Positions 1,047 through 28,723 of a stretch of DNA of 39,563 bases are shown piece by piece (position 1 is the stretch's first letter; each line of letters begins with the position of its first letter). The notes beneath the pieces are model-generated. The model ran no database searches. It was given only the letters and a program-made list of their open reading frames with translations, and was not told the DNA's origin. The position numbers and the translations under genes were made by a program. This DNA comes from Moorena sp. SS36440bin_2 (GTDB taxonomy: Bacteria > Cyanobacteriota > Cyanobacteriia > Cyanobacteriales > Coleofasciculaceae), in NCBI GenBank assembly GCA_011524395.1, contig WTKN01000026.1:1-39563 (forward strand), in the 5' to 3' direction.

Positions 1047-3406
1047 TGAAGCCTGCCAGTGGTACAGTAGTAAGTCTTGCTTATATTCTGGGCTTAGTTT
1101 CTACAGGGATTCTTAACTTACCGACTGGTGAGATTCCCTGGCAAGAGTACAGAGCTTTGGTGACAGGATTGGTTGTCACAGGGATAGTGGCTGCGATCGC
1201 ATTCCCTAGGTTCTGGCGCACAGGACCAAAACCAAGATTATGGGTAGCAGCAGGACTAATCTCTGCCTTGGCGGTGGTCTATTTTCAATTGCGGGTACCA
1301 CAACCAGAACTGAATGACATTAGCGAATATGTCCCCTCAACCAATAGCATTGCTCCAGAGCAACTGTTTAAAGTTGAAGGCAAAGTGGAGAGTATGCCTC
1401 GCCTGACCCGAACTCAGCGTACACAACTTTGGTTACAAACTACTCAGTTAACTGAAATTGAAAGTCGCGAAGATGGGGGAGCGGTCAGTCAAGGCGTGAC
1501 CGGCAAGTTGTATGTGACTGTGCCATTACTTCAAGGAACTGGTTTATACCCAGGTCAGATAATTAGCGTAACTGGGGTTTTATATAAACCCAAGCCAGTG
1601 ACTAATCCGGGAGCCTTTGATTTTGGAGCCTATCTTGCCCGTCAAGGGGCTTTTGCTGGTTTGAGTGGGCGTCAAATAAACTTTGATGAGGAAACTATTG
1701 ATAAACCCTGGGGATGGTGGAGACTGCGACAACGTATTATCCGTTCCCAGGTTCGCTTATTAGGCTCTCCCACAGGTCCGTTAGTCAGTTCAATGGTTTT
1801 GGGGCGTCGTGCTGTTGATTTGCCCTACGATATCCGCGATCAATTTATTCAGGCTGGGTTAGCCTATACCTTAGCAGCATCTGGATTCCATGTCTCTTTG
1901 CTGTTGGGTTTTGTCTTAGCCCTTACCAGGGGTTTAAACAAAGGAAAGCAGTTCAGTATTAGCTTGAGTGTACTTTTAACATACGTGGCATTAACTGGAC
2001 TGCAGCCATCGGTAATGCGGGCGGCTCTGATGGGGGTGGGTGCCCTAATTGCTTTAGTGACTGCACGGAAAGTGAAGCCTTTAGGGTCACTCTTGTTAGC
2101 AGCAACACTTTTACTCCTATTTAATCCTTTGTGGATCTGGGATTTGGGATTTCAGTTGAGCTTTCTGGCCACCCTTGGATTACTAATCACTGCACCAGAG
2201 ATTATCAAACGTTTGGATTGGTTGCCACCTGCGATCGCATCCCTAATTGCTGTGCCAATTGCAGCAGCAGTTTGGACTCTGCCCCTGCAACTGTATGTTT
2301 TTCAAGTTGTTGCCACCTACTCTATACCAGTTAGTGTTATTGCTACACCCCTAATTTCTATTATCACCTTGGGCGGAATTGTCAGCGCCTTGGCAGGACT
2401 AATTTGGCCAACAGCAGGAAGTAGCCTGGCTTGGTTACTGTATTATCCAACCCATGGACTGATGGGACTAGTGCAATTTTTCAATCAGTTGCCAAGCAGT
2501 TCTGTAGCGGTGGGCAAAATTTCCCTAGGGCAACTGTTATTTCTCTACGGGCTAATTGGTATAGCTTGCTTGATTAAATGGTTACATCCTCGTTGGTGGC
2601 TGATTAGTCTAGTTGCTGTCACTGTGGTGGTGTTGCCCCAATGGCAACAAGCGTCAAAATTGTTTCAAGTTACAGTGCTAGCTACAGGAAATAACCAAAT
2701 TTTAGTGATTCAAGACCAGGGACAAGTAACCTTGTTAAATAGTGGCAACCCTGATACAGTCAGGTTTACAGTGCTGCCTTTTCTGCAAAAGCAAGGTATC
2801 AATGATATTAATTGGGCAGTTGCTCTCGACAAGCAGCCCCAACTCAGAAGTGGTTGGGTTCAGGTTCTAGGTAGTTTACCGATCGAAACTTTCTACGATA
2901 ACACTGATTTACAACAACCATTGTCTCAGGCTCAAAATTGGAACAATATTGTTACCCGTAACTCTATCGCTAATGCAATAGCGTCTAGGGAGGGTAACTA
3001 CCAACCAATTCCACTGGGGGAAATACTCTCTGTTGGCTCTACTTCAATAGAATTAGTCAACACTGAACCACCAGTGTTACTGATGCGCATCATTGACCAA
3101 AATTGGTTACTCTTAGGAGATATCAAACCAGCCTTCCAAAAACAGTTAGCCAAAACCATCCGTTTCCCTGAGCTACAAGTACTTTGGTGGTCGGGAAAAA
3201 GTCTGAGGCCAGAATTTCTGGATGCCCTGCAACCGAAAATTGCGATCGCATCATCCAATGTCGTGGATTCCTACACGGCGAAGCTAATGCGCAATGCTAA
3301 AATGACCCTCTATTGGACAGGCCGTGATGGTGCTATCCAATGGACACCGGATGGTGGTTTTAAGACTACTGTTGAAGATATTGAGATAGACATTGATGTT
3401 CCTTAA
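1046..3406 (+). CDS. comEC: ComEC/Rec2-family DNA-uptake channel protein
   Basis: A 786-residue polytopic membrane protein of the ComEC/Rec2 family, which forms the inner-membrane channel for single-stranded DNA during natural transformation. I start it at ATG 1046, one base inside the upstream stop; the reading frame stays open further upstream to 992, but that would overlap the upstream gene. In order: two N-terminal hydrophobic helices and the DUF4131/OB-like soluble region (about 60-210), the Competence domain with many helices and the family motif ASGFHVS (about 230-520), then a C-terminal beta-lactamase-like region from about 550. The metal-binding HxHxDH motif expected in catalytic relatives is not visible there: the equivalent stretch reads NDINWAVALDKQPQ. 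This suggests a non-catalytic terminal domain. Confidence 0.9.
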   Translation: MKPASGTVVSLAYILGLVSTGILNLPTGEIPWQEYRALVTGLVVTGIVAAIAFPRFWRTGPKPRLWVAAGLISALAVVYFQLRVPQPELNDISEYVPSTNSIAPEQLFKVEGKVESMPRLTRTQRTQLWLQTTQLTEIESREDGGAVSQGVTGKLYVTVPLLQGTGLYPGQIISVTGVLYKPKPVTNPGAFDFGAYLARQGAFAGLSGRQINFDEETIDKPWGWWRLRQRIIRSQVRLLGSPTGPLVSSMVLGRRAVDLPYDIRDQFIQAGLAYTLAASGFHVSLLLGFVLALTRGLNKGKQFSISLSVLLTYVALTGLQPSVMRAALMGVGALIALVTARKVKPLGSLLLAATLLLLFNPLWIWDLGFQLSFLATLGLLITAPEIIKRLDWLPPAIASLIAVPIAAAVWTLPLQLYVFQVVATYSIPVSVIATPLISIITLGGIVSALAGLIWPTAGSSLAWLLYYPTHGLMGLVQFFNQLPSSSVAVGKISLGQLLFLYGLIGIACLIKWLHPRWWLISLVAVTVVVLPQWQQASKLFQVTVLATGNNQILVIQDQGQVTLLNSGNPDTVRFTVLPFLQKQGINDINWAVALDKQPQLRSGWVQVLGSLPIETFYDNTDLQQPLSQAQNWNNIVTRNSIANAIASREGNYQPIPLGEILSVGSTSIELVNTEPPVLLMRIIDQNWLLLGDIKPAFQKQLAKTIRFPELQVLWWSGKSLRPEFLDALQPKIAIASSNVVDSYTAKLMRNAKMTLYWTGRDGAIQWTPDGGFKTTVEDIEIDIDVP

Positions 3407-3525
3407 TAGTGATTCCATCATTGACCACCCAGCAATGCCTGAGTTTTCAACAGCAGACTTGACAAATTCCAGGATTTTGTGTTCAAATTTCAGATGAAGT
3501 CTGGGGTGCGGTTTGACTAGATCAT

Positions 3526-3612
3526 GGAGGGGTGTCCGAGTGGTTTAAGGTGGCAGACTCGAAATCTGTTATGGTGTCAAAGCCATCGGGGGTTCGAATC
3601 CCCCCCTCTCCG
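3526..3612 (+). tRNA. trnS-CGA: tRNA-Ser (anticodon CGA)
   Basis: The 87-nt sequence folds as a class II tRNA. The acceptor stem is GGAGGGG (3526-3532) with CCTCTCC (3605-3611), including one G-T pair. The anticodon loop is CTCGAAA with anticodon CGA at 3560-3562, reading UCG. A long variable arm follows, and the T arm is GGGGG-TTCGAAT-CCCCC (3588-3604). The discriminator is G at 3612, as is usual for serine tRNAs. The CCA end is not encoded (TAC follows), so it must be added by nucleotidyltransferase. Confidence 0.97.
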
Positions 3613-3800
3613 TACAAGGATTTAACTCAATTTTTGGTCAATCTTACTCATTAATGTGCTAGATACTGGTAGTAGGTAAGATCAGGTAACTTTCATCCCA
3701 GACAAGAAGTTGGGAAGATCGAAGAAGTTGGGGATATAGGCTTAGAATTAAATTATATTCATATATTGATTCATTTTTATCAGCTCGGGATTTAAGCCAA

Positions 3801-4190
3801 GTGACTTCTGCTGATTATTCTCCAAAATCGACATCAACTGTTGAACTCTCCCCAAGCTATACACTGCCTATAGTGTTGATTATTGCTGCAGTGACAATAG
3901 TGCTCATACAACCCTGGGTGAGTTTAGCGATGGCGTTGTTCGGCTTCTTTTTATTGTTTCAGGCCGTAACCATACGCCTGCAATTTACTGAAACCGCCTT
4001 GGATATTTATCGCTCCGAAACCCTGATCCGGCGTTTTCCTTATCAGGAATGGCAAAATTGGGAAATCTTCTGGACATCAGTACCGATTTTGTTTTATTTT
4101 TCAGAAGTCAAAAGCATTCACTTTCTACCAATTCTATTTGATCCAAAGCTGCTACGAACTTGCCTAGAAGAACGCATACCTAAAGGATAA
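3801..4190 (+). CDS. DUF3119 family membrane protein
   Basis: A 129-residue protein that begins at GTG 3801. It has a long hydrophobic hairpin at about residues 20-58, then a soluble tail rich in aromatic residues with the stretch EWQNWEIFW, which fits the cyanobacterial and plastid DUF3119 family. The tail resembles a small PH-like domain, but the function is unknown. It is followed 69 bp downstream by the DUF3086 gene and then plsY. I recall this neighbourhood as recurrent in cyanobacteria and it may hint at a membrane or lipid-related role. The start is somewhat uncertain because no strong ribosome-binding site is visible. Confidence 0.75.
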   Translation: MTSADYSPKSTSTVELSPSYTLPIVLIIAAVTIVLIQPWVSLAMALFGFFLLFQAVTIRLQFTETALDIYRSETLIRRFPYQEWQNWEIFWTSVPILFYFSEVKSIHFLPILFDPKLLRTCLEERIPKG

Positions 4191-4259
4191 CTGACATACC
4201 TCAAATTATAGAGTAGAGGTTACGTAGTTAGTGAATAAGTTATTAATAAACCAGTTTAA

Positions 4260-5498
4260 ATGAATTCCGAAGACCCACAAAACCCAGAACAAGAGCAAGA
4301 TAATAACCAAGCAAAGGGATTAGATAATTCACAGGAGTCAAATTTCCCAGATCAAGATAGGGCTACTCCCAGGGATAACTCTCAAGCTCCCGACCTTCCT
4401 CCCATTTCTCTGACCCTATCAGACCATGACAAAGCTAAACCAACACAGTCGAGTGAGCCGAATCGGGATGATAAAGTTAGTGAAATTCAACTAGGGGAGT
4501 CTTCAGAACAAGCAAAAAAAATGGTTAGCTTAGCTCAAACTGTGGCTGAACTTGAGCAAAAAGAACAGGAGTTGAGACACAGAATTGCCACTCTGCAAAA
4601 CCATGAACAGTCACTGGTTTCAAAGGAATTGGGAACTACCCAAGCAGTTGTGGAGCGGATGATACTTGAAGGTCTGACCGAACTGGAGCAACGCAAGCAA
4701 AAGTTGCAAATTTCTATTGAGCAACTAGAACGCCGCCGGGAACGCATTCGTGAAGAAATGCGCACCAGTTTTGCGGGTGTATCTCAAGAGCTAGCGATTC
4801 GGGTTCAAGGCTTTAAAGATTATTTGGTTGGCTCCTTACAAGACCTAGCTGCTGCTGCAGAACAACTGGAACTCTCCCAGCCGCCAAGGGAAGTACCACG
4901 CTCAGAATTAGAAAAAACCCCACCACCCCCGACCAGAGGCAACCCACAATTTTCCGAACAAGCATTTAAAGACGAAGTCCGACAGATTCGTCAGCTGTTG
5001 GATCAATATCGCAAAATGCCAGATTATTATGGTCCTCCCTGGCAACTGCGTCGTACCTTCGAGCCAATTCACGCTGAAAAAGTTTCTCAGTGGTTTTTTT
5101 CCCAAGGTGGTCGTGGTGCGTTGCAAACTATGGGCAGCCGCTTACAAAATGTTTTAATTGCCTCAGCGGTTATATCCGTGTTGCGGACACTGTATGACAA
5201 TCGCCTAAGTACTCTTGTGCTGGCCAACACCCCAGAACGACTGGGAGAATGGCGTAGAGGATTACAGGACTGTCTGGGAATCTCCCGCAGTGATTTTGGT
5301 CCAGAACGGGGAGTTGTTCTATTTGAAGATCCAATAGCCCTGGTTCAAAAAGCGGAACGACTGATCAAGCGGGATCAGTTAGCCTTAATCATTGTTGACG
5401 AAACTGAAGATAAGATCAGTTTGTCATTATTGCAATTCCCCCTATGGTTGGCGTTTGCACCTGATCCTCGGCAGATGTATACTTACGACGATTATTGA
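4260..5498 (+). CDS. DUF3086 family protein with N-terminal coiled coil
   Basis: A 412-residue soluble protein. Residues 1-85 are low-complexity and polar (Asn, Gln, Asp, Ser, Pro), probably disordered. Residues about 85-170 are a strong coiled coil rich in Glu, Gln and Leu (for example EQKEQELRHR and LEQRKQKLQ). After a proline-rich linker (TPPPPTRGNP), a conserved globular C-terminal domain spans about 235-412 and ends in YTYDDY. The layout fits the cyanobacterial DUF3086 family, whose function is unknown. ATG 4260 is the first in-frame start. The gene lies between the DUF3119 gene and plsY on the same strand, so a shared transcript is plausible. Confidence 0.8.
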   Translation: MNSEDPQNPEQEQDNNQAKGLDNSQESNFPDQDRATPRDNSQAPDLPPISLTLSDHDKAKPTQSSEPNRDDKVSEIQLGESSEQAKKMVSLAQTVAELEQKEQELRHRIATLQNHEQSLVSKELGTTQAVVERMILEGLTELEQRKQKLQISIEQLERRRERIREEMRTSFAGVSQELAIRVQGFKDYLVGSLQDLAAAAEQLELSQPPREVPRSELEKTPPPPTRGNPQFSEQAFKDEVRQIRQLLDQYRKMPDYYGPPWQLRRTFEPIHAEKVSQWFFSQGGRGALQTMGSRLQNVLIASAVISVLRTLYDNRLSTLVLANTPERLGEWRRGLQDCLGISRSDFGPERGVVLFEDPIALVQKAERLIKRDQLALIIVDETEDKISLSLLQFPLWLAFAPDPRQMYTYDDY

Positions 5499-10644: not shown

Positions 10645-11595
10645 ATGCATTCTTATTCCCTAAATGCCCCAGCTAAAATCAATCTGTATTTGGAAATCCT
10701 CGGTGATGCGGGTGATGGTTATCACGAACTCGCAATGATTCTCCAAAGCATCGAATTAGCTGATCAAATCGACATCCGTGCCATTGGTACACAGGAGATT
10801 AAAGTCCACTGTAATCATCCCCAAGTCCCAACGGATGAAAGCAACCTCGCTTATAAAGCAGCTGCCTTGATGTGGGAGGAGTTTCCTGAGTGTTTTGCTA
10901 ACTTGGGTGGTGTGGAAATTACTATCCACAAGCGAATTCCTGTAGCGGCTGGACTAGCTGGTGGTTCGACGGATGCAGCGGCTGTGTTAGTAGGAATCGA
11001 TATGTTGTGGCAATTGGGATTAACCCACCCGGAATTACAACAATTGGCAGCACAGCTTGGATCGGATGTGCCGTTTTGCCTTGCTGGTGGCACCGCTCTA
11101 GCTCTGGGGAGAGGTGAGCGATTGTCTGCCCTACCGGGACTGGATTCTCTATATGTGGTTTTGGGGAAATACCGCAGTCTGATGGTTTCTACTGCTTGGG
11201 CTTATCAGACTTATCGGGCTCAGTTTGGGGAAACCTATATCCGGGAGCCTGAGGACTTAGAATACCGTGCTAATCGTGTTCATAGTGGTCCAATGGTTAA
11301 GGAAATCCTCAATAAGGATGGAGGACAGATTGGAAAACTATTACGCAATGATTTAGAGAAAGTGGTGTTACCCAATCACCCCCAAGTCTTGGAACTACGG
11401 AAAGCCTTTGAGAATAGTGGTGCCATAGGAACCATGATGTCTGGTTCCGGTCCGACGGTATTTGCCCTGTGTGAGTCCAAGGAGCAAGCCCAGGAAATTC
11501 AACAGAAAGTAAGCATTGACATTACTGACCCAGATTTGGAGTTTTGGGTGACCAAGTTATCGACTCAGGGGATTCAGGTGATGTCAACACCTTGA
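10645..11595 (+). CDS. ispE: 4-diphosphocytidyl-2-C-methyl-D-erythritol kinase IspE
   Basis: A 316-residue GHMP-fold kinase that phosphorylates the 2-hydroxyl of CDP-methylerythritol in the MEP isoprenoid pathway, feeding carotenoid, phytol and quinone synthesis. Seen: the N-terminal APAKINLYLEILG with Lys11, the ATP-binding glycine-rich loop PVAAGLAGGSTDAAA (about 99-113), catalytic Asp141 in GSDVPF, and the C-terminal MSGSGPTVFAL motif. Length is normal. The start is ATG 10645, 48 bp after the iscB stop. Its promoter may now lie inside the inserted element, or transcription may read through from rsmA. Confidence 0.96.
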   Translation: MHSYSLNAPAKINLYLEILGDAGDGYHELAMILQSIELADQIDIRAIGTQEIKVHCNHPQVPTDESNLAYKAAALMWEEFPECFANLGGVEITIHKRIPVAAGLAGGSTDAAAVLVGIDMLWQLGLTHPELQQLAAQLGSDVPFCLAGGTALALGRGERLSALPGLDSLYVVLGKYRSLMVSTAWAYQTYRAQFGETYIREPEDLEYRANRVHSGPMVKEILNKDGGQIGKLLRNDLEKVVLPNHPQVLELRKAFENSGAIGTMMSGSGPTVFALCESKEQAQEIQQKVSIDITDPDLEFWVTKLSTQGIQVMSTP

Positions 11596-11651
11596 GCCGT
11601 TAGCCCTGAGTTGGTTAGTCACTTTCGACTCAGGAGTAACCAGAGTTTGAA

Positions 11652-13433
11652 TCATTTATTATTCTTGAAATAAGCCTCCATCACCTGGCGCACAATTGGT
11701 CCTGCCACTGAACCGCCACCGCCGCCAGAATGTTCCACAAAAGCAACAACGGCAATCTCGGGTTTATCATAGGGGGCAAAACCACCAAACCAAGCATGAG
11801 CTTTTCCAGGAGGAGCCTCTGCTGTTCCACTCTTACCAGCGGAAGGAGGTAACTCTGGCACCCTCAATGCCGCTCCTGTTCCCCCAGTAACCACAGCTCG
11901 CAATCCTCGGCGCAGGGTCTGAATCGTTGATGGCTTCATATTGATGGACACTCGCCCTTTGATAGCATCCTGATTGTTCTTGAGCAAGTGCGGTTTAACC
12001 CGATAGCCCCCATTGGCAACTACAGAAAACATCACTGAGGATTGTAAGGGTGTTCCTAGGGTAAACCCTTGACCAATAGACATATTTATGGTATCTCCAA
12101 CGGTCCATCCCCAATTGTAGTTTTTCCGCTTCCAGGCATCATCCACTATCAAACCACGGGATTCCCCAGATAACTCAATACCAGTTTTTTCACCAAAGCC
12201 ATATTTACGAGCCCATTCAATCAGGGTTTTCCCCCCAACCCCTCGACCGATTTGACCAAAGAAGGTGTTACTGCTCCAAGCCATAGCACCCACAAATCCC
12301 ATTGGACCAAATCCGGCTCGATTCCACTCCCCAAAGGCATGACCACCGACATACAGGTAAGGATAAGTCTGTAAAACAGTTTTGGGAGAATACCGACCAG
12401 ATTCCATACCCGCCGAAGCCGTGACTACCTTAAATGTACTGGCTGGAGGAAACCCTCGCATTGCCCGGTTTATAAACGGATTCCCTCTGCCTTGTAGCTT
12501 TCGCCAGGTTTCTGAGGTGATGCGAGTCGAGAAAATATTCGGGTCAAAGGTTGGACGAGAAACCATTGCGAGGACAGCACCGGTGTTGGGGTCCATAGCC
12601 ACGACTGCCCCTTTGCGATCGCCTAATGCTGCCTCGGCTGCCTTCTGCACGTCTATATCGATGCTTATATGGATAGGTTTACCCGCTTTTGCCTGTTTCT
12701 GACCCAGAACCCTGACGACTCGTCCAGCACCATCAACTTCTACTTGCTGACCGCCCCATTCTCCCCGTAGCAGATGCTCATAAGACTTCTCCACTCCCAT
12801 TTTTCCCACCACATCACCGAGGCGGTAGCCATCAGGTTTACGCCGTTGCAGCTCTTCATAGTCTAACTCTCCAGTATAACCTAGAACGTGAGCCGATAGC
12901 TGTCCATGGGGATAGTACCGCACTGCATCAATATCCACCTCTATCCCCTGTAATTCATTGCTGTACTCAGCCAAAGCAGTAACTTGAGCGGGAGTAACAC
13001 CACGGGCAATCCGAAGTAGGTAAGGAGAGTTATAGCCCGCTTGTTCCAGACGCTTTTGAATCTCAGCGTCTGGTATCTTCAAAATTTGGGACAAGCGTTT
13101 ACGAGTTTGGGGCCATTGCTCCTGCCTAAGAACCAAGGGCCACACAAATACCGAGTGAGACAACCGATAGCTAGCTAATACTCTTCCCTTACGGTCAAAA
13201 ATATTGCCCCGTATAGGCGGCTTGGGAATCAGACGAATCCGGTTATTTTCTGCCAGCTGTCGGTTGCGTTCCCCTTGAACTAGTTGTAAATAGGCTAGAC
13301 GGAAACCAATTCCCCCCAGCAAGAATAGGCTAATCAGTAGCATAATCACTACAGATTGGTATTTACGTCCGACAGTGCGGGAATTAGATCGATATACTTT
13401 ATACGAAGATAAGGAAGGCTGAATTAATGTCAT
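11652..13433 (-). CDS. mrdA: Penicillin-binding protein 2 (class B transpeptidase, elongasome)
   Basis: A 593-residue peptidoglycan DD-transpeptidase with a short cytoplasmic N-terminus, one membrane anchor (about 28-48) and the PBP dimerisation domain starting near RGNIFDRKGRVLA. The transpeptidase domain has the three active-site motifs: Ser332-Thr-Phe-Lys335, Ser387-Ser-Asn389 and Lys534-Ser-Gly-Thr. This architecture matches PBP2/MrdA, which cross-links lateral-wall peptidoglycan with RodA. No rodA, mreB, mreC or mreD lies beside it. The gene converges on ispE with 56 bp between the stops, where a 7-bp stem (CCTGAGT 11605-11611 with ACTCAGG 11628-11634) could act as a weak terminator. Confidence 0.93.
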   Translation of the reverse strand: MTLIQPSLSSYKVYRSNSRTVGRKYQSVVIMLLISLFLLGGIGFRLAYLQLVQGERNRQLAENNRIRLIPKPPIRGNIFDRKGRVLASYRLSHSVFVWPLVLRQEQWPQTRKRLSQILKIPDAEIQKRLEQAGYNSPYLLRIARGVTPAQVTALAEYSNELQGIEVDIDAVRYYPHGQLSAHVLGYTGELDYEELQRRKPDGYRLGDVVGKMGVEKSYEHLLRGEWGGQQVEVDGAGRVVRVLGQKQAKAGKPIHISIDIDVQKAAEAALGDRKGAVVAMDPNTGAVLAMVSRPTFDPNIFSTRITSETWRKLQGRGNPFINRAMRGFPPASTFKVVTASAGMESGRYSPKTVLQTYPYLYVGGHAFGEWNRAGFGPMGFVGAMAWSSNTFFGQIGRGVGGKTLIEWARKYGFGEKTGIELSGESRGLIVDDAWKRKNYNWGWTVGDTINMSIGQGFTLGTPLQSSVMFSVVANGGYRVKPHLLKNNQDAIKGRVSINMKPSTIQTLRRGLRAVVTGGTGAALRVPELPPSAGKSGTAEAPPGKAHAWFGGFAPYDKPEIAVVAFVEHSGGGGGSVAGPIVRQVMEAYFKNNK

Positions 13434-22162: not shown

Positions 22163-23779
22163 ATGGCACAGCTAAGTAAAAGTGTAAGGATGGTGCCTCT
22201 ATCGAGATATTGGGAAATTTTAAGACTTGATCCTGCTAGTGTTGGGTGTGGTTACAAAAAACTATTACTACCGCTGGCATGGGAGTTTTTTCAACAGAAG
22301 TGTCTAGAATTAGATGCTTCAGAAACGCGATTGACCGTTAGCGGCAGCGTCGGGCAAAGCCCGAGAGGTACGCGCCTCCAAGGCCGGGGCACTCGGCCTT
22401 GGGTCCCACCTCAAGGTCACGCTACGCGAACGGATTTGTCGGTGGAGCAGCATCGGGATATTCAAACCTTCCTATACACCTGGTTTCACCCTGAGGAATC
22501 GTCTGGGTCAGCTATAAGTCGTGCTAGAGCAGGACTTTGTCTTCGTTGCTATGTCTCTTACCCAATCCTGAAAGCTTGCAAGAAATTGGCTAGTTTATAT
22601 AGCGCTAGCCATGATTTCACCTATCGGGATTTGCTGCCATTTGTGCTTGATGATGATGGTAAAGTGCTAATTATCTTAGATCAGGATGGTACAACTCAAC
22701 TGATCCTCAATGGCGATAGGGAAACAAAAAAAACTGATTACCAATTTTTTACGGTTGAAGTATTACGGAAATATAACCTGAATTCCCCATCCAAATCTAG
22801 GTTAGATGATTGGGTCTACTATCAAACCAAACAAAATCCCAAACTTAAAGACTTCTTATCGGAGCGGGGACTTTGTTTTCTCAGTGACTGGGCTCTGCTC
22901 AATCGAGCTAGACCAACACAATTGGAACAACTCTTGCCACGCGATCGCAATATCCTAGAAGCCTTTCATGCAGTCTACCGTCGGGACAGACGCCAACAGC
23001 CAGAAAAAAAAGCTAGACGTTGTCTAGATCCCACTCAGTCTCAACTTGAAGAAATGAGACACCTCTTGCAGGAAAAATCGGTAATTGTCAACTCTCTAGC
23101 ACAGCTGAGCAATGAACTCAAACATCTGGCCAGACTGCTAAGGCAATATGACATATGGATTCGCAGCGGATTTCCGCCATCGGAATCCCTACAGGTGTCG
23201 GATTCGGATACTGGACGCGACCGAGAGTTACCAGATCCAAATTTCACCAACACTTTAGATGCGATCGCACGACAAGAATTACAGCAATTCTGTGGTCAGC
23301 AACTCATAGCCTGTTTGGATTTGGGGATAGAGCAAGGGCTAACTGACCGCATTACCAAGCTAGAGCGCAGTCGAAGTTATGCCCGTTTTGCATCAAAGGT
23401 TATATCAGGTCTTGAACTGATCTACTGTCATGGTAAATCTCAAGCCGAGATTGCCTCTATTTTAGGAATGACCAATCAGTCCCAAGTTAGCCGGGTACTA
23501 AATCCCAAGGAGCTGCTCAATCGGGTGCGGTTTTGGACAATAGACAAACTTTTCCACATTATCTCCCATGCAGCAGATCAGTTTAATCTGGCAAATATGT
23601 CTAGGGATCCAGACTATTTCAGAAACTTGATGGAACACCTAGAAGCTTTCGTGGATGCTGAAGTCTTCCAAGAAGCAGCTGCAGAAATCATGACAGGGAA
23701 AAAGTGTTCTACTAATAGCCTATATGCCCAGCGACTATGCCGCTACCTTGAGACACTGAAGCAGGAAAATCATGACTAG
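22163..23779 (+). CDS. Sigma-70-region-4-like protein of a CHAT/DUF1822 locus
   Basis: A 538-residue protein. Near residues 414-450 it has a helix-turn-helix resembling sigma-70 region 4 (ELIYCHGKSQAEIASILGM), and a middle region with LDDWVYYQTKQNPKL, SDWALLNRARPTQLEQLL and ILEAFHAVYRRDRR. From memory, cyanobacterial proteins annotated as sigma-70 family that neighbour DUF1822 genes share this layout. I see no convincing region 2, so whether it binds core polymerase is unclear. Residues 59-89 are encoded by an in-frame GC-rich palindromic repeat. Its stop overlaps the DUF1822 gene by eight bases, implying translational coupling. Confidence 0.7.
   Translation: MAQLSKSVRMVPLSRYWEILRLDPASVGCGYKKLLLPLAWEFFQQKCLELDASETRLTVSGSVGQSPRGTRLQGRGTRPWVPPQGHATRTDLSVEQHRDIQTFLYTWFHPEESSGSAISRARAGLCLRCYVSYPILKACKKLASLYSASHDFTYRDLLPFVLDDDGKVLIILDQDGTTQLILNGDRETKKTDYQFFTVEVLRKYNLNSPSKSRLDDWVYYQTKQNPKLKDFLSERGLCFLSDWALLNRARPTQLEQLLPRDRNILEAFHAVYRRDRRQQPEKKARRCLDPTQSQLEEMRHLLQEKSVIVNSLAQLSNELKHLARLLRQYDIWIRSGFPPSESLQVSDSDTGRDRELPDPNFTNTLDAIARQELQQFCGQQLIACLDLGIEQGLTDRITKLERSRSYARFASKVISGLELIYCHGKSQAEIASILGMTNQSQVSRVLNPKELLNRVRFWTIDKLFHIISHAADQFNLANMSRDPDYFRNLMEHLEAFVDAEVFQEAAAEIMTGKKCSTNSLYAQRLCRYLETLKQENHD
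22337..22429 (+). repeat. In-frame dispersed palindromic repeat inside a coding region
   Basis: A GC-rich island of 93 nt (31 codons) inside the AT-richer sigma-like gene. It contains CGGGC-AAA-GCCCG (22351-22363), AAGGCCG (22380-22386) with CGGCCTT (22394-22400), and ends in the core CGCTACGCGAAC (22420-22431) that also occurs in intergenic DNA at 17800 and 37008. The encoded residues are Gly/Arg/Pro-rich and look like an insertion. The length is a multiple of three and no stop is introduced. The exact boundaries are approximate. Confidence 0.7.
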
Positions 23780-25106
23780 TTATTCTGTTAATTCCACCGA
23801 CCTCAGGCTTGTGCAACCAGAATGTATTTGGTTAGACTCTGAACAGTTTGAGCAAGCAGTACAAATGAGCAATCAAGTCATCTCAGAACCACGCCAATGG
23901 CAAACCTATCTGAATGGACTAGCATTACTTAGTTTTACACAATGGTTACAAGAAAAGTTAGCTAATATCTTGATTTCTGATAATTGTTGTTCTTTACGAC
24001 AACCTAAATACGCTAATGTGATTGAAGCGGTATGTAATCTTATCGTAGGCGAATTTAAGCTTTGTTTAATTACCAGTGAGAGTTTACTTGATGAAGTGGT
24101 TACTGTACCGATAGCCGCCATTGATTTACCAGAATTTGCTGCTCATTTTTATGTTGTAATTGAAGTGCAAGAAGAGCTAAAAACTGCTATTATTCGAGGC
24201 TTTACACGTTACGACGAACTAATTAATTATCGACAAGTTTTTAATTTACATCCTGAAGTTGATTGGAACTATAGTTTACCTCTATCATTGTTTGATCCTG
24301 AGCCAAATCACCTACTATTTTATTTACGTTTTTTGGATTCCGCTGCTATTGAGTTACCAGTCAATTCCCCTAATTACCTCCCTAAGATATCTCTGAACTC
24401 ACCTGACTTAGAAACATTAGAAACATTATTAGATCGTCTACAATATCCTGAGCAAACTCTTTGGAAAACCTTAACCTGGGAGCAAGGGCTGACTATACTC
24501 CAAAGTCCTGAATTACTCGATTTGTTATATCAGTGGCAACTAACTACCTATAGAACAAGGTCTCTTTCTATTCGAATTACAGAAGTATTTACTATACTAA
24601 CTCAAAAGGCTATCAATACCCAGCAATGGCTGGAGGGTAAATTAGACGAATTTGCCCAAAGTTTAGGATTGTTCATCCGTGAACCATTGACTGGGAATTC
24701 ATCGATATTTCGGTCAATTGATAAATTCGATAATGTAATTAATGAGCTTAGACATCAAGGAATGGATATTCCTCCTGAACCAGGTCGATCTTATCAGGAC
24801 ATAGACATAGGCGAAACTGCTTTACGACTATGTGCCGTCACCTGGCCAATTGACTCTCCAATTCCTCCACCAAAATGGTCATTACTGCTAATTTTAGGAA
24901 CTCAAATGGGTACTCCTTTACCTGATGGATTCAAGCTACAAGTTAGTAATATAAGGTCTATTATACATGAGCCGATATCAGGGCTTGATGATCCATTTTT
25001 GTTTGCCCGTGTGGAAGGATACTCAGATGAAAAATTTGTGGTGACTATTATCCCACCAGATAGTTCAGCACAGACCTTATCTCCTTATGCCTTCGAGCCT
25101 AATTAA
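23772..25106 (+). CDS. DUF1822 family protein
   Basis: A 444-residue, largely soluble and acidic protein that I place in the cyanobacterial DUF1822 family from its N-terminal pattern (CIWLDSEQFEQAVQMS, QWQTYLNGLALLSFTQWLQE) and the C-terminal LCAVTWPIDSPIPPPKWSLLLILGTQMGTPLPDGFKL. No membrane helix, signal peptide or catalytic motif is apparent. The function is unknown. It overlaps the preceding sigma-like gene by eight bases and is followed 72 bp later by the CHAT/CHASE2 gene. From memory this three-gene order recurs in cyanobacteria, which points to a common system; a partner or substrate role is inference. Confidence 0.8.
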   Translation: MTSYSVNSTDLRLVQPECIWLDSEQFEQAVQMSNQVISEPRQWQTYLNGLALLSFTQWLQEKLANILISDNCCSLRQPKYANVIEAVCNLIVGEFKLCLITSESLLDEVVTVPIAAIDLPEFAAHFYVVIEVQEELKTAIIRGFTRYDELINYRQVFNLHPEVDWNYSLPLSLFDPEPNHLLFYLRFLDSAAIELPVNSPNYLPKISLNSPDLETLETLLDRLQYPEQTLWKTLTWEQGLTILQSPELLDLLYQWQLTTYRTRSLSIRITEVFTILTQKAINTQQWLEGKLDEFAQSLGLFIREPLTGNSSIFRSIDKFDNVINELRHQGMDIPPEPGRSYQDIDIGETALRLCAVTWPIDSPIPPPKWSLLLILGTQMGTPLPDGFKLQVSNIRSIIHEPISGLDDPFLFARVEGYSDEKFVVTIIPPDSSAQTLSPYAFEPN

Positions 25107-25178
25107 ATAGCATTTAAGTTATTAATTAAAAATAAAATAGGTAAAAATAATTACAATATTGGAAGATTTTTTTGGGTA

Positions 25179-27659
25179 ATGACTACTGTTTTTGAAATTA
25201 AAGTTTGGTATAAAACAGATGATAAATCTTGTTTCTTTTTGCTGCTATGGGATGACAAAAAAAGGCAGCTATCTGCCAGCATAAACTATTCCAATGAAAT
25301 ACAAAAATATTATAAATGCTGGCGACAGCGCTACAGTAGGTTTTACGAATTCCAGTCAGTGAAACCTATAGAAGATAGTGGCAGAATTAATCCTGGTTCA
25401 GGTGACCCATGTTATGATTTGATGGAGGCAGAAAGAGAGTTCGTCAATGCTTTCCAGCGTTGGTTAGGAGAAGGCGAAGTTCGTAAGATTCAAGAGCGGA
25501 TTCGAGACGAATTTACTGGTGTTGCTCAAGTGATATCGAAAGATAGCAAGGGGATTGGTACTAACCCCAGTGTTGATATTTTCCTAGCTTGTGACTCTAT
25601 CGAAATGGAACGGTTACCATGGGAAACTTGGGAACTTGCTCCTGAAGGCACACCCGTTGGTACAGTTCGCATTTTCAGAAGCGCTATGGATAATCCGGAT
25701 TCCATTGCTTGTAATAAACCTCTGAAAAGTTGGGGTGCGACCCCGGGCTTTTTGAAAGCGCTAGGGAACGCGCACCAAAGAAAAACCCGTATTCTAGCTA
25801 TCTTCGGAGATGATCCCAGACTACCGTTGCAGGATGATTGGAAAGCTGTGCGATCGCTTAAATCTATTGCTGAGGTCGAGCGAGTAACCTGGCAACCCCA
25901 TGAAAACCATGTGGATATCAAAACCAAAATTGCTAATGCTATCTGTGATCAACGAGGCTGGGATGTGCTGTTCTTTGCTGGACATAGCGATGAAACCACA
26001 ACTACAGGAGGAAGACTTGCGATCGCTCCTAATATATCCCTGTCGATTAGTGAACTGGAAGAACAATTAACTCAAGCTAGAGAACATAGATTGCAGCTGG
26101 CTATTTTCAACTCCTGCAGTGGCCTGAGCATCGCTAACTCTCTAGTTAAACTTGGGTTACAGGTAATAGTGATGCGGGAACCCATTCGCAATGATGTGGC
26201 TCAGAGTTTTCTCCAGCAGTTTTGTAAGCCCCTAGCTGACCATAAAGATGTTTACGATGCACTACTCGAAGCCTGTCAACATCTTCAATCTGTAGAGAAA
26301 TTTGCCTATCCCTCTGCCTATCTGCTGCCCTCTTTATTTAATCCTCCCGGTTTGATTCCCTATCGCATTGAGCGGTTTGATTGGAAGAAAATGCTGCAGC
26401 AGTGGTTACCGAGCAGACCAGAAGCGATCGCATTAGGAACAGTTTTACTGTTGAGTGTCATCCCAGCTATTCAAGTAGAATTATTGTTCGACATTCGAGC
26501 ATTAGTTCAAGCGGCCTATCGTAATTTGACGAATCAAATACCAGAGAATTCCTTAGCGCCTGTTTTCTTAGTTGCTATCGACCAGGAATCCCTAGATCAA
26601 GCTGATGAAGCAATAGAAAGCACACAAGGTAAGTTGACTGATTCCGAATACTTAGCCAAGTTGGTAAGACACCTATACGCCTTGAATGCTCAAGTAATCG
26701 GCATCTACTACAGTCGGCATATCTACCAACCTAGATACGACAATCTTGATCAAGCGATTCGCTCTGCTGTGGAAAAGGGGAATACCTGGTTTGTGCTAGC
26801 AACAGATAAACAAGATAAAGTCGCTAGCCCCAAATGGAGTTTAGAAGGGTACGTAGACTTTGAGCCTTGGACTATTGAACAGCCTCCAGATGCCAGCTGT
26901 ATCGATGAGTCATGTCCGTTTGCCTATCAGCTAGCAGTAGCTCATCTGCTCAATCAACAGTCATCTGAAGATAGTTTACCCCAACCAAAATTAAATAGTA
27001 CAGTAGATTTTCAGTTTCAAGTCAGTGATTATCTAAAGCAACGAAAGACTCACAATCAAGGGCTGATTTCTTTCAATAAATCTACTTTTTCCTTTAAACT
27101 AGCTTCTATTATAGACTTTTCTATTCCTCCTAGACAAGTCTATAAATCTATTACAGCTAAGGAACTTCTCAATTTTCCTGTACCTAATCCAGAACTACAA
27201 CACTATGTGATGAAGCAAGTTATTATTATCACTCATAGTGACTACAATGACACAGAAGATGACTTTTACTTTCCGTCAAGTGCTCGCTATTGGTGTCATT
27301 ACTATCAACCTGTAAAACAGGATCTAAATAAGTGCCTCGAAGTATTAACTAGAGGAGAAGTATTGGCTTATATGGTGAACCATATAATCCGGCAGCATCG
27401 GGTAGTTTTGATTCCTGATCAGTGGGTAATTTTCCTAGCCGCATTTATAGGAAAATGGACTACTATTATCTTACAAAAACAACTAATACAACGACACAAA
27501 AAGGTATTAACGTTAGGGATTATAACCGGAGTATACGGATTAGTTATATTGCAGGTTTATATATCAGCATTAGTATTGATTCCGTGGTTTTTACCGTCAA
27601 TACTAGTTTGCTTTTACTATAGTTTCGCTTTCCAAAAAAGTTTTTTAGCTAGGAGATGA
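25179..27659 (+). CDS. CHAT protease domain - CHASE2 sensor membrane protein
   Basis: An 826-residue fusion. After an N-terminal region, a CHAT (caspase-HetF-associated) domain spans about residues 120-375, with the His-Cys dyad His269 in FFAGHSD and Cys313 in FNSCSGL, and the family-typical LPWETWEL near 145. A membrane segment (about 415-437) follows, then an extracytoplasmic CHASE2 sensory domain (about 438-740, with VFLVAIDQESLDQ near its start), and two to three C-terminal helices (about 745-820). The predicted layout puts the protease in the cytoplasm and the sensor outside. Catalytic residues look intact. The stop overlaps the next small gene by four bases (ATGA). Confidence 0.88.
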   Translation: MTTVFEIKVWYKTDDKSCFFLLLWDDKKRQLSASINYSNEIQKYYKCWRQRYSRFYEFQSVKPIEDSGRINPGSGDPCYDLMEAEREFVNAFQRWLGEGEVRKIQERIRDEFTGVAQVISKDSKGIGTNPSVDIFLACDSIEMERLPWETWELAPEGTPVGTVRIFRSAMDNPDSIACNKPLKSWGATPGFLKALGNAHQRKTRILAIFGDDPRLPLQDDWKAVRSLKSIAEVERVTWQPHENHVDIKTKIANAICDQRGWDVLFFAGHSDETTTTGGRLAIAPNISLSISELEEQLTQAREHRLQLAIFNSCSGLSIANSLVKLGLQVIVMREPIRNDVAQSFLQQFCKPLADHKDVYDALLEACQHLQSVEKFAYPSAYLLPSLFNPPGLIPYRIERFDWKKMLQQWLPSRPEAIALGTVLLLSVIPAIQVELLFDIRALVQAAYRNLTNQIPENSLAPVFLVAIDQESLDQADEAIESTQGKLTDSEYLAKLVRHLYALNAQVIGIYYSRHIYQPRYDNLDQAIRSAVEKGNTWFVLATDKQDKVASPKWSLEGYVDFEPWTIEQPPDASCIDESCPFAYQLAVAHLLNQQSSEDSLPQPKLNSTVDFQFQVSDYLKQRKTHNQGLISFNKSTFSFKLASIIDFSIPPRQVYKSITAKELLNFPVPNPELQHYVMKQVIIITHSDYNDTEDDFYFPSSARYWCHYYQPVKQDLNKCLEVLTRGEVLAYMVNHIIRQHRVVLIPDQWVIFLAAFIGKWTTIILQKQLIQRHKKVLTLGIITGVYGLVILQVYISALVLIPWFLPSILVCFYYSFAFQKSFLARR

Positions 27660-27937
27660 TTTTGACTACTATCGATCCCATGACTAAGGTAATCTCACGA
27701 ATTACGAATAATAATACCCAAGTGCCAATGAATCAAACAGAAAAACGTCCAGGAAAAAAACAAAAGAGACCATGGTGGTGGCCCTCAGATAAACCGCTTT
27801 CTCCAAGCCTCGTTACCTCGACAGGAAATGAATTAGATCAGGAAAAGGGTTTGACATCAAAGTTATTCCTAATTTTCTTTATCCTTCTTATTATTTTTTT
27901 ACTCCCTTTTCTAACTCAGTTTCTATATTTTAAATGA
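27656..27937 (+). CDS. Small tail-anchored basic protein
   Basis: A 93-residue protein whose ATG overlaps the CHAT/CHASE2 stop by four bases, a strong sign that it belongs to the same translational unit. Residues about 30-50 are basic and aromatic (KRPGKKQKRPWWWPSDKP). A single hydrophobic helix closes the protein (FLIFFILLIIFLLPFL, about 72-87), so it is predicted to be tail-anchored with its N-terminus in the cytoplasm. I recognise no family. By position it may be a partner or substrate of the CHAT protease; that is inference. Confidence 0.65.
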   Translation: MILTTIDPMTKVISRITNNNTQVPMNQTEKRPGKKQKRPWWWPSDKPLSPSLVTSTGNELDQEKGLTSKLFLIFFILLIIFLLPFLTQFLYFK

Positions 27938-28150: not shown

Positions 28151-28723
28151 ATGAATACTCAGGCAAAACAGTTTAACGGTGTTCTCTTACAAGGGGTAGT
28201 AGAAGGATTAATGGATGGTGTATTGATTTTGAACGCTCAGGGAGAGTTAGTTCATAGCAATTGTTATGGTCGCTTTATTTGTGCTCAACTAGCAGTGGGT
28301 AAGTCAAAATTTAACCTTGTTCCCAAAGAAATCAGGCGTGTTTGCCAAGCTGTGCTCGACAGCTGTGAGTTATATCCAAATCAGCCAATAGTTATCGAGT
28401 CTGAAATTATTACTGAACGCTCAACATCTTTTCGGATTCGAGCCGTTAAGCTCACCTTAGACTCTTTTGAAAATCCCTGCATTTTAGTAACACTAGAAAA
28501 TCACGATCAATATGCTGAGAGTTTAGCGATCGCAGAGGTGAATAAATATGACCTGACTCCTCGTGAGGCCGAAGTTTGGTTACTGCGTCGTGGTGATTAC
28601 AGCTATCAGGAGATTGCTGATGAATTGCACATTACTCTTAACACAGTGAAGAAGCACTTGAAAAATATTTATGCTAAAATAAAATTTCACCAACTCAAAC
28701 AGGAATTTTTACAAGCCAATTAA
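28151..28723 (+). CDS. PAS-like / LuxR-type response transcription regulator
   Basis: A 190-residue regulator. Residues about 15-115 look like a PAS-type sensory fold (GLMDGVLILNAQGELVHSN is the usual start of a PAS domain). Residues about 130-182 are a LuxR/GerE helix-turn-helix: LTPREAEVWLLRRGDYSYQEIADELHITLNTVKKHLKNI. There is no receiver domain. The gene follows the small tail-anchored gene after 213 bp, so it may be separately transcribed, and it has a 13-bp tandem motif upstream. It could read the state of the CHAT/CHASE2 system or simply be a neighbour. Confidence 0.85.
   Translation: MNTQAKQFNGVLLQGVVEGLMDGVLILNAQGELVHSNCYGRFICAQLAVGKSKFNLVPKEIRRVCQAVLDSCELYPNQPIVIESEIITERSTSFRIRAVKLTLDSFENPCILVTLENHDQYAESLAIAEVNKYDLTPREAEVWLLRRGDYSYQEIADELHITLNTVKKHLKNIYAKIKFHQLKQEFLQAN

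Follow-up and report, generated by a model that had tools for sequence, protein, structure and literature searches.

The contig WTKN01000026.1 of Moorena sp. SS36440bin_2 (GCA_011524395.1, an assembly of 7.75 Mb in 441 contigs), analysed over positions 1 to 39,563 and called the window below, carries four genes on the plus strand coding for a sigma-like protein (P0001), a DUF1822 protein (P0002), a membrane protein that joins a CHAT domain to a CHASE2 domain (P0003) and a small basic tail-anchored protein (P0004; Table 1). A first-pass annotation had described these genes as tightly packed, with overlaps of 8 and 4 nucleotides (nt), and the open reading frame coordinates agree for genes 1/2 and 3/4, respectively; a 72-nt gap that separates the DUF1822 gene from the CHAT gene went unmentioned there. 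A scan for promoters and terminators gave counts (16 and 7) that do not clearly exceed those of shuffled sequences (a mean of 17.6, and 5.2, respectively). We propose that the locus is very probably a cyanobacterial cassette, consisting of a sigma-like and DUF1822 core with a plugged-in membrane receptor-protease.

Table 1. Positions of the genes and features of the sigma-like/DUF1822/CHAT-CHASE2 locus in the window
Feature	Position	Strand	Identity or basis
Sigma-like gene (P0001, 538 aa)	22163..23779	+	diverged long-type sigma-70 relative, C-terminal region-4-like helix-turn-helix
Region-4-like stretch, aa 417-438 of P0001	23411..23476	+	Pfam Sigma70_r4_2, sub-threshold
Repeat-derived in-frame stretch in sigma-like gene	22366..22417	+	genome matches and alignment A6
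DUF1822 gene (P0002, 444 aa)	23772..25106	+	Pfam E=8.7e-48, aa 19-288; structure model
CHAT-CHASE2 receptor-protease (P0003, 826 aa)	25179..27659	+	Pfam CHAT 4e-9, CHASE2 1.4e-9
His269 codon, predicted catalytic	25983..25985	+	family alignment
Cys313 codon, predicted catalytic	26115..26117	+	family alignment
CHASE2 extracytoplasmic sensor domain, aa 423-754	26445..27440	+	Pfam; flanking hydrophobic segments
Basic tail-anchored protein (P0004, 93 aa)	27656..27937	+	tblastn over 128 loci; 2/119 genomes; dN/dS

Profile searches bear out the earlier assignment of the second gene to DUF1822 and of the third to a CHAT-CHASE2 fusion. The structure model of P0002 (mean predicted local distance difference test score 81, 19 sequences) displays an N-terminal part of alpha/beta type, followed by a helical region and, at the C-terminus, a beta-sandwich, and no transmembrane segment is evident in the protein. 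A fold search with this model recovered 851 matches at E<=10, a single one of which, PDIP38, reaches E<=0.001 with a TM-score of 0.17 by query; the weak matches listed include ApaG-type and other beta-sandwich proteins, and we infer which part of P0002 is matched. A profile search of the PDB with DUF1822 returned nothing useful. In P0003 both domains score above the Pfam cut-off (CHAT at aa 236-374, CHASE2 at aa 423-754), and hydrophobic segments lie at about aa 419-437, 742-760, 777-795 and 793-811. The dyad claimed by the first-pass annotation is intact, with His269 lying in a FAGHS motif and Cys313 in an NSCSG motif, and both residues are kept in all 60 CHAT proteins that can be aligned at the dyad, the remaining 2 of 62 being gapped there (the alignment, A3, omits 2 of 64 matches, which are fragments in loci L059 and L098). 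P0003 is a predicted cysteine protease. Across the family a conserved N-terminal stretch precedes the CHAT domain, and the receptor domain varies: 47 of the 62 proteins carry CHASE2 and 6 carry Peripla_BP_6. Kinship of P0003 with HetF was considered and not accepted (NCBIfam E=0.15).

The resemblance of the first gene product to sigma-70 region 4 is clearer at the level of its family than for P0001 itself, which has a lone Pfam match to Sigma70_r4_2 that falls below threshold (E=0.0035; 17.4 bits where the cut-off is 25.7) and in which Pfam detects no region 2. A profile of the long family to which it belongs (A1, 54 proteins) matches sigma region 4 in the PDB (1l0o, E=3.9e-9) and, separately, region 2 (8b3z, E=9.7e-5), its region-4 part also matching non-sigma helix-turn-helix (HTH) regulators (from E=9.1e-6). 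At E<=0.01, Pfam detects Sigma70_r4_2 in 24 of the 54 members and Sigma70_r2 in 7. When ten long members were scanned singly, both regions were found in 4, region 4 alone in 1, region 2 alone in 1 and neither in 4; region 2 lies before region 4 with a long linker in all 4 members with both domains (aa 86-144 and 305-352 in L044). By these comparisons the subfamily of the window is more diverged than the wider long family, and "sigma-like" is a fair word for the family of P0001. A second, short class of genes upstream of DUF1822 is weakly supported as sigma by its sequences. The repeat-derived stretch in the window's sigma-like gene matches a dispersed repeat at 7 other places in the genome with 77-88% identity, and is shorter or missing in three Moorena relatives. 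For a CHAT-less sigma group of 390 aa, SigJ was considered because of its size and rejected, as sigJ appears to be monocistronic (PMC6495340); SigI was also weighed as a candidate, and the portion of PMC2758279 available to us yielded no gene-context data. The word CHAT is absent from the main text of a survey of cyanobacterial sigma factors (PMC11119718).

We then considered the conservation of the gene neighborhood across cyanobacteria, which had been suggested as a check on the first-pass annotation. At E<=0.001, 188 of the 292 genomes of the phylum contain a DUF1822 match, 177 of them above cut-off. The census covers 60 loci from 48 genomes (some contribute several loci, and some loci are near-identical, e.g. 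L080/L095 and L075/L079), drawn from the DUF1822 matches listed, which end near E=1e-55; 48 of the loci were taken as every third listed match from genomes other than that of the window, and a further 12 bring in other families and genera. Small-genome cyanobacteria (family code f31), in which DUF1822 gives single weak matches with E between about 1e-4 and 1e-17, lie outside this sample. A CHAT gene was counted when it lay no more than 1.5 kb downstream on the same strand and matched our own profile of the family, and a sigma-like gene when it lay within 1.5 kb upstream; fragments are among the counted partners (sigma in L082, L095 and L098; CHAT in L098). Of the 62 DUF1822 anchors in these loci, 56 are preceded by a sigma-like gene, which is of the long type in 33 cases and of the short type in 23; the other 6 have none within that distance, L054 and L055 having a short-type gene farther upstream. 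A CHAT gene follows 37 of the anchors. The converse search, with the long subfamily profile A6, found 52 places in 36 of 119 genomes of the order, and DUF1822 lies downstream in 28 of the 30 listed long sigma-like loci, the window included. Among 17 DUF1822 loci of named relatives searched by phmmer with the window proteins, all have the sigma-like gene and 13 a downstream CHAT gene; L015 and L028 end within DUF1822, and L022 has no CHAT gene. The closest DUF1822 relatives are those of three Moorena loci (89-94% identity), followed outside Moorena by L016 (54%) and L017 (52%), the latter a full triad. Within Moorena genes 1-3 are under purifying selection, with ratios of nonsynonymous to synonymous substitution rates (dN/dS) of 0.11-0.39.

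Given this recurrence of gene order across cyanobacteria and the purifying selection, the grouping of genes 1-3 exceeds chance, and the sigma-like, DUF1822 and CHAT-receptor genes form a true conserved module. The notion that four unrelated genes lie together by accident could draw on the 72-nt gap and on a fourth gene not found outside Moorena-type genomes, yet it is refuted for genes 1-3 by strong co-conservation in both search directions, and we give it practically no credence. The fourth gene fails the same check. P0004, which has one hydrophobic segment (aa 72-90) and a single implausible sub-threshold Pfam match (Nrf1, E=0.035), was found in two genomes, its own and one of the same genus, among the 119 of the order, and in a tblastn search of 128 loci L013 and L014 alone gave matches at E<=0.1. 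Among three Moorena copies its dN/dS is 0.63-0.93, on short sequences with low power, against 0.11-0.39 for the other three genes. P0004 evolves fast and is an accessory of Moorena-type copies rather than a core part of the system, so that its inclusion as a component of the system, as first proposed, is not upheld.

The triad is not obligatory, since CHAT is absent downstream of 24 of the 62 DUF1822 anchors (1 further anchor is cut), and as CHAT is often missing or replaced the sigma-like and DUF1822 genes look like the core and the protease like a plug-in. Other proteases appear as the next gene in loci counted as CHAT-less: a gene coding for a tetratricopeptide repeat (TPR)-CHAT protein in L043, and double-trypsin proteins in L070 (8012-9775) and L072 (3182-6130), which take the place of CHAT behind DUF1822 in two lineages of DUF1822 that are sisters. 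A DUF1822 tree of 85 rows agrees with this picture. Its 48 long-type rows all fall in clades of 22 (support 100/100) and 28 rows (96/99), and its 31 short-type rows all fall in one 35-row clade (100/100), 6 rows having no sigma-like gene seen. CHAT absence is scattered, the CHAT-less long-type rows requiring 6 changes, at least 4 of them forced by starred branches. Because sigma type follows the DUF1822 clades whereas CHAT loss is scattered, the sigma-like and DUF1822 genes look like an inherited unit with an exchangeable protease slot.

Pairwise distances within triads correlate at 0.93 for DUF1822 and CHAT, 0.85 for sigma and DUF1822 and 0.81 for sigma and CHAT in the 26 long triads, and at 0.83, 0.57 and 0.54, respectively, in the 23 short ones, values that mix shared descent with pairing; CHAT distances use the first 400 residues, and the tree and distance sets leave out fragments, L015 and L086 (cut), and L016 and L094 (DUF1822 dropped for overlap). 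The paralogues of the window's own genome are free of confounding by species history, and here DUF1822 and CHAT distances correlate at r=0.70 (p=0.0015, n=10). This genome has 13 DUF1822 matches, which amount to ten loci with a CHAT-profile protein, nine of them (L030-L038) in addition to the window; the CHAT protein of L036 (8717-11440) carries Peripla_BP_6, and Pfam detects no domain in that of L033. The genome also has 14 CHASE2 matches, 8 of them on contigs of the ten DUF1822 loci. In L035 a 159-aa DUF1822 fragment (11272-11751), perhaps a decayed duplicate, lies upstream of the full DUF1822 gene.

The retention of DUF1822 by the sigma-like gene where CHAT is lacking would also suit an alternative that gives DUF1822 a positive role, as adaptor or co-factor for a sigma-like DNA-binding protein that has diverged, for instance by bridging it to RNA polymerase or the membrane; the CHAT receptor would then tune the system by removing DUF1822. 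The modelled C-terminal beta-sandwich of DUF1822, whose weak best fold matches include ApaG-type domains, and the want of a detectable region 2 in the window's sigma-like protein may point the same way. A sigma gene and the regulator gene that follows it often form an anti-sigma pair, however, which counts against an adaptor, and we consider this alternative distinctly unlikely.

The grouping itself, and the idea of a protease acting on a sigma factor, are already in print (PMC8195603, eLife 2021), and the window is a further member of that published family. That paper reports an EACC2-caspase protein that is constant except for its C-terminus, of which CHASE2 is one version; its gene neighborhoods contain DUF1822 and an extracytoplasmic function (ECF) sigma factor, and the authors suggest that it is activated as an autopeptidase and that the output is transcriptional. 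On our own reading "caspase" there covers CHAT, and the window has three of the traits described, namely a DUF1822 neighbor, a caspase-superfamily domain with CHASE2 and, by family profile, a sigma neighbor. The same three gene types, the CHASE2 option, a grouping independent of TRADD-N and the coupling of protease to sigma factor are thus shared. The accounts differ in that PMC8195603 calls DUF1822 a TPR protein, whereas P0002 has no TPR match in Pfam and its model no helical-repeat fold, and in that auto-proteolysis, not cleavage of an anti-sigma factor, is proposed there. What we add are the counts, the sigma-DUF1822 core, the two sigma classes matched to DUF1822 clades, the loss or replacement of CHAT, DUF928 and the Moorena-type small protein; in the literature on this grouping, as far as its text was available, we met neither an anti-sigma role of DUF1822 nor an exchangeable protease slot. 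DUF928 is the gene after CHAT in 18 of 39 other loci (set A4, from which 1 of 40, a short sigma-like gene in L090, was omitted) and finds no mention in section 9 of PMC8195603. A full-text literature search, in which DUF1822 turned up in 2 papers and EACC2 in 3, two of the latter unrelated to judge by title, and which was assessed by titles and the starts of abstracts, made evident no experiments on DUF1822 or EACC2, PMC9679502, which has DUF1822, aside.

On the published proposal (Kaur et al. 2021) the caspase-type domain would cut itself on stimulus and the sigma factor would be a further output; DUF1822 would then be a scaffold and not a substrate, a clause that is our addition. It was put forward for this very grouping of an EACC2-caspase with a variable, CHASE2-bearing C-terminus beside ECF sigma and DUF1822 (PMC8195603), and the conserved N-terminus and dyad together with the variable receptor agree with it. 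It leaves unexplained both the matching of DUF1822 to sigma type and its retention beside the sigma-like gene where CHAT is lacking, and we regard it as rather unlikely. Starting from the observed gene order, co-conservation, dyad conservation, receptor swapping and match of DUF1822 clade to sigma type, we instead posit that a CHASE2 domain outside the membrane would sense a signal and activate the inner CHAT cysteine protease of the same polypeptide; DUF1822 would hold the sigma-like factor inactive until CHAT cuts it (or itself first), and the freed factor would change transcription. Taken whole, as a cassette in which signal-triggered CHAT cleavage of DUF1822 releases the sigma-like factor, this is our working proposal, to which we give slightly less than even credence. 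The part that casts DUF1822 as the cleaved inhibitor draws on analogy and is likewise put forward tentatively.

The analogy is drawn because of a precedent in the type III-E CRISPR-associated CASP system, which comprises Csx29 (a TPR-CHAT protein), Csx30 and CASP-sigma, with Csx30 a cleaved sigma inhibitor (PMC10028731). There, as here, the genes for a CHAT protease and a sigma factor stand together with that for a third protein; in that system activation comes from target RNA via Cas7-11, whereas here it would come, if at all, from the membrane receptor domain. Kinship of DUF1822 with Csx30 was considered and found no support, neither the profile search of the PDB nor the 50 fold matches listed of the 851 including an entry named Csx30, with the presence of a Csx30 chain in the libraries unchecked. 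The proposed route would resemble RseA/RpoE or Csx30/CASP-sigma, except that a single protein would serve as both receptor and protease. In the DegS/RseA/RpoE pathway the sensor-protease and the membrane anti-sigma factor are separate proteins. DUF1822, with no evident transmembrane segment and an anti-sigma role that we infer, differs from the latter. Regulated proteolysis by DegS/RseA/RpoE is mentioned in PMC10028731. A metacaspase-CHASE2 protein of Trichodesmium has the same plan as P0003, with an N-terminal caspase-family domain, four transmembrane helices and an outward CHASE2 (PMC3501461), but no link to a sigma factor or DUF1822 was seen, the term DUF1822 having 0 occurrences in the text of that source as available.

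Several observations weigh against the proposal of a cleaved sigma inhibitor. On the side of the sigma-like protein, a search of the PDB with the window subfamily profile A6 retrieves no sigma factor and ranks an HTH regulator first (E=0.01), and the model of P0001 is poor (predicted TM-score 0.49) and gives no significant fold match. Of 33 upstream genes taken for the short class, not all of them members, 6 contain Sigma70_r4_2 and 2 contain Sigma70_r2; the profile of this class has no PDB match, and hhalign relates it to the long class with a probability of 12%. DUF1822 shows no anti-sigma or Csx30 resemblance among the PDB-profile and fold matches listed, and the paralogue correlation of DUF1822 with CHAT falls to r=0.56 (p=0.09, n=8) once the two most similar paralogues are set aside. 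Moreover, DUF1822 has a role without CHAT, as the 24 CHAT-less anchors imply together with L016. On that metagenome contig the CHAT slot after the sigma-like and DUF1822 genes holds a relative of histidine kinases, a 736-aa frame (3278-5486) that has no CHAT-profile match and resembles phytochrome-type sensors and histidine kinases in the PDB. Of ten downstream proteins selected from nine CHAT-less loci, some not directly adjacent to DUF1822, 7 are the products of unrelated genes.

The first-pass suggestion of protease-coupled membrane signalling, once freed of the small protein, retains what it needs in the conserved module, the intact dyad and the varying receptor domain. If it is true, some filamentous cyanobacteria run about ten parallel one-protein receptor-protease routes to sigma-like factors, as the ten loci of the window's own genome would suggest. 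A module for cell death or defense against phages, in which CHAT kills and the sigma-like factor merely regulates the operon, would fit CHAT being a caspase relative and the proposal of related systems as conflict systems (PMC8195603). PADLOC, however, found nothing in the four proteins but a weak DinG-like match (E=0.0078), and the presence of ten copies in a single genome, equipped with CHASE2 or periplasmic-binding sensors, is more suggestive of environmental signalling, so that we consider this improbable. For the release of a sigma-like factor, DUF1822 offers a concrete candidate substrate and Cys313 a concrete mutant for a direct test. On a wider and more doubtful view, DUF1822 might be a large unrecognised family of cyanobacterial sigma inhibitors, each tied to one of two sigma classes and served by interchangeable proteases (CHAT fused to CHASE2 or periplasmic-binding receptors, TPR-CHAT or tandem trypsins), the CHAT-receptor form sensing outside and cutting the inhibitor inside by a route distinct from two-component and RseA-type signalling.

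Downstream of the cassette, at 28151-28723, lies a LuxR-type HTH gene that is conserved (dN/dS 0.21-0.34), occupies the same position in L013 and L014 and may or may not belong to the pathway. DUF1822 relatives are also found in 23 plasmid records, the named ones cyanobacterial, of which 5 are rated conjugative and 8 mobilizable; the sigma/DUF1822/CHAT cassettes may therefore be mobile.

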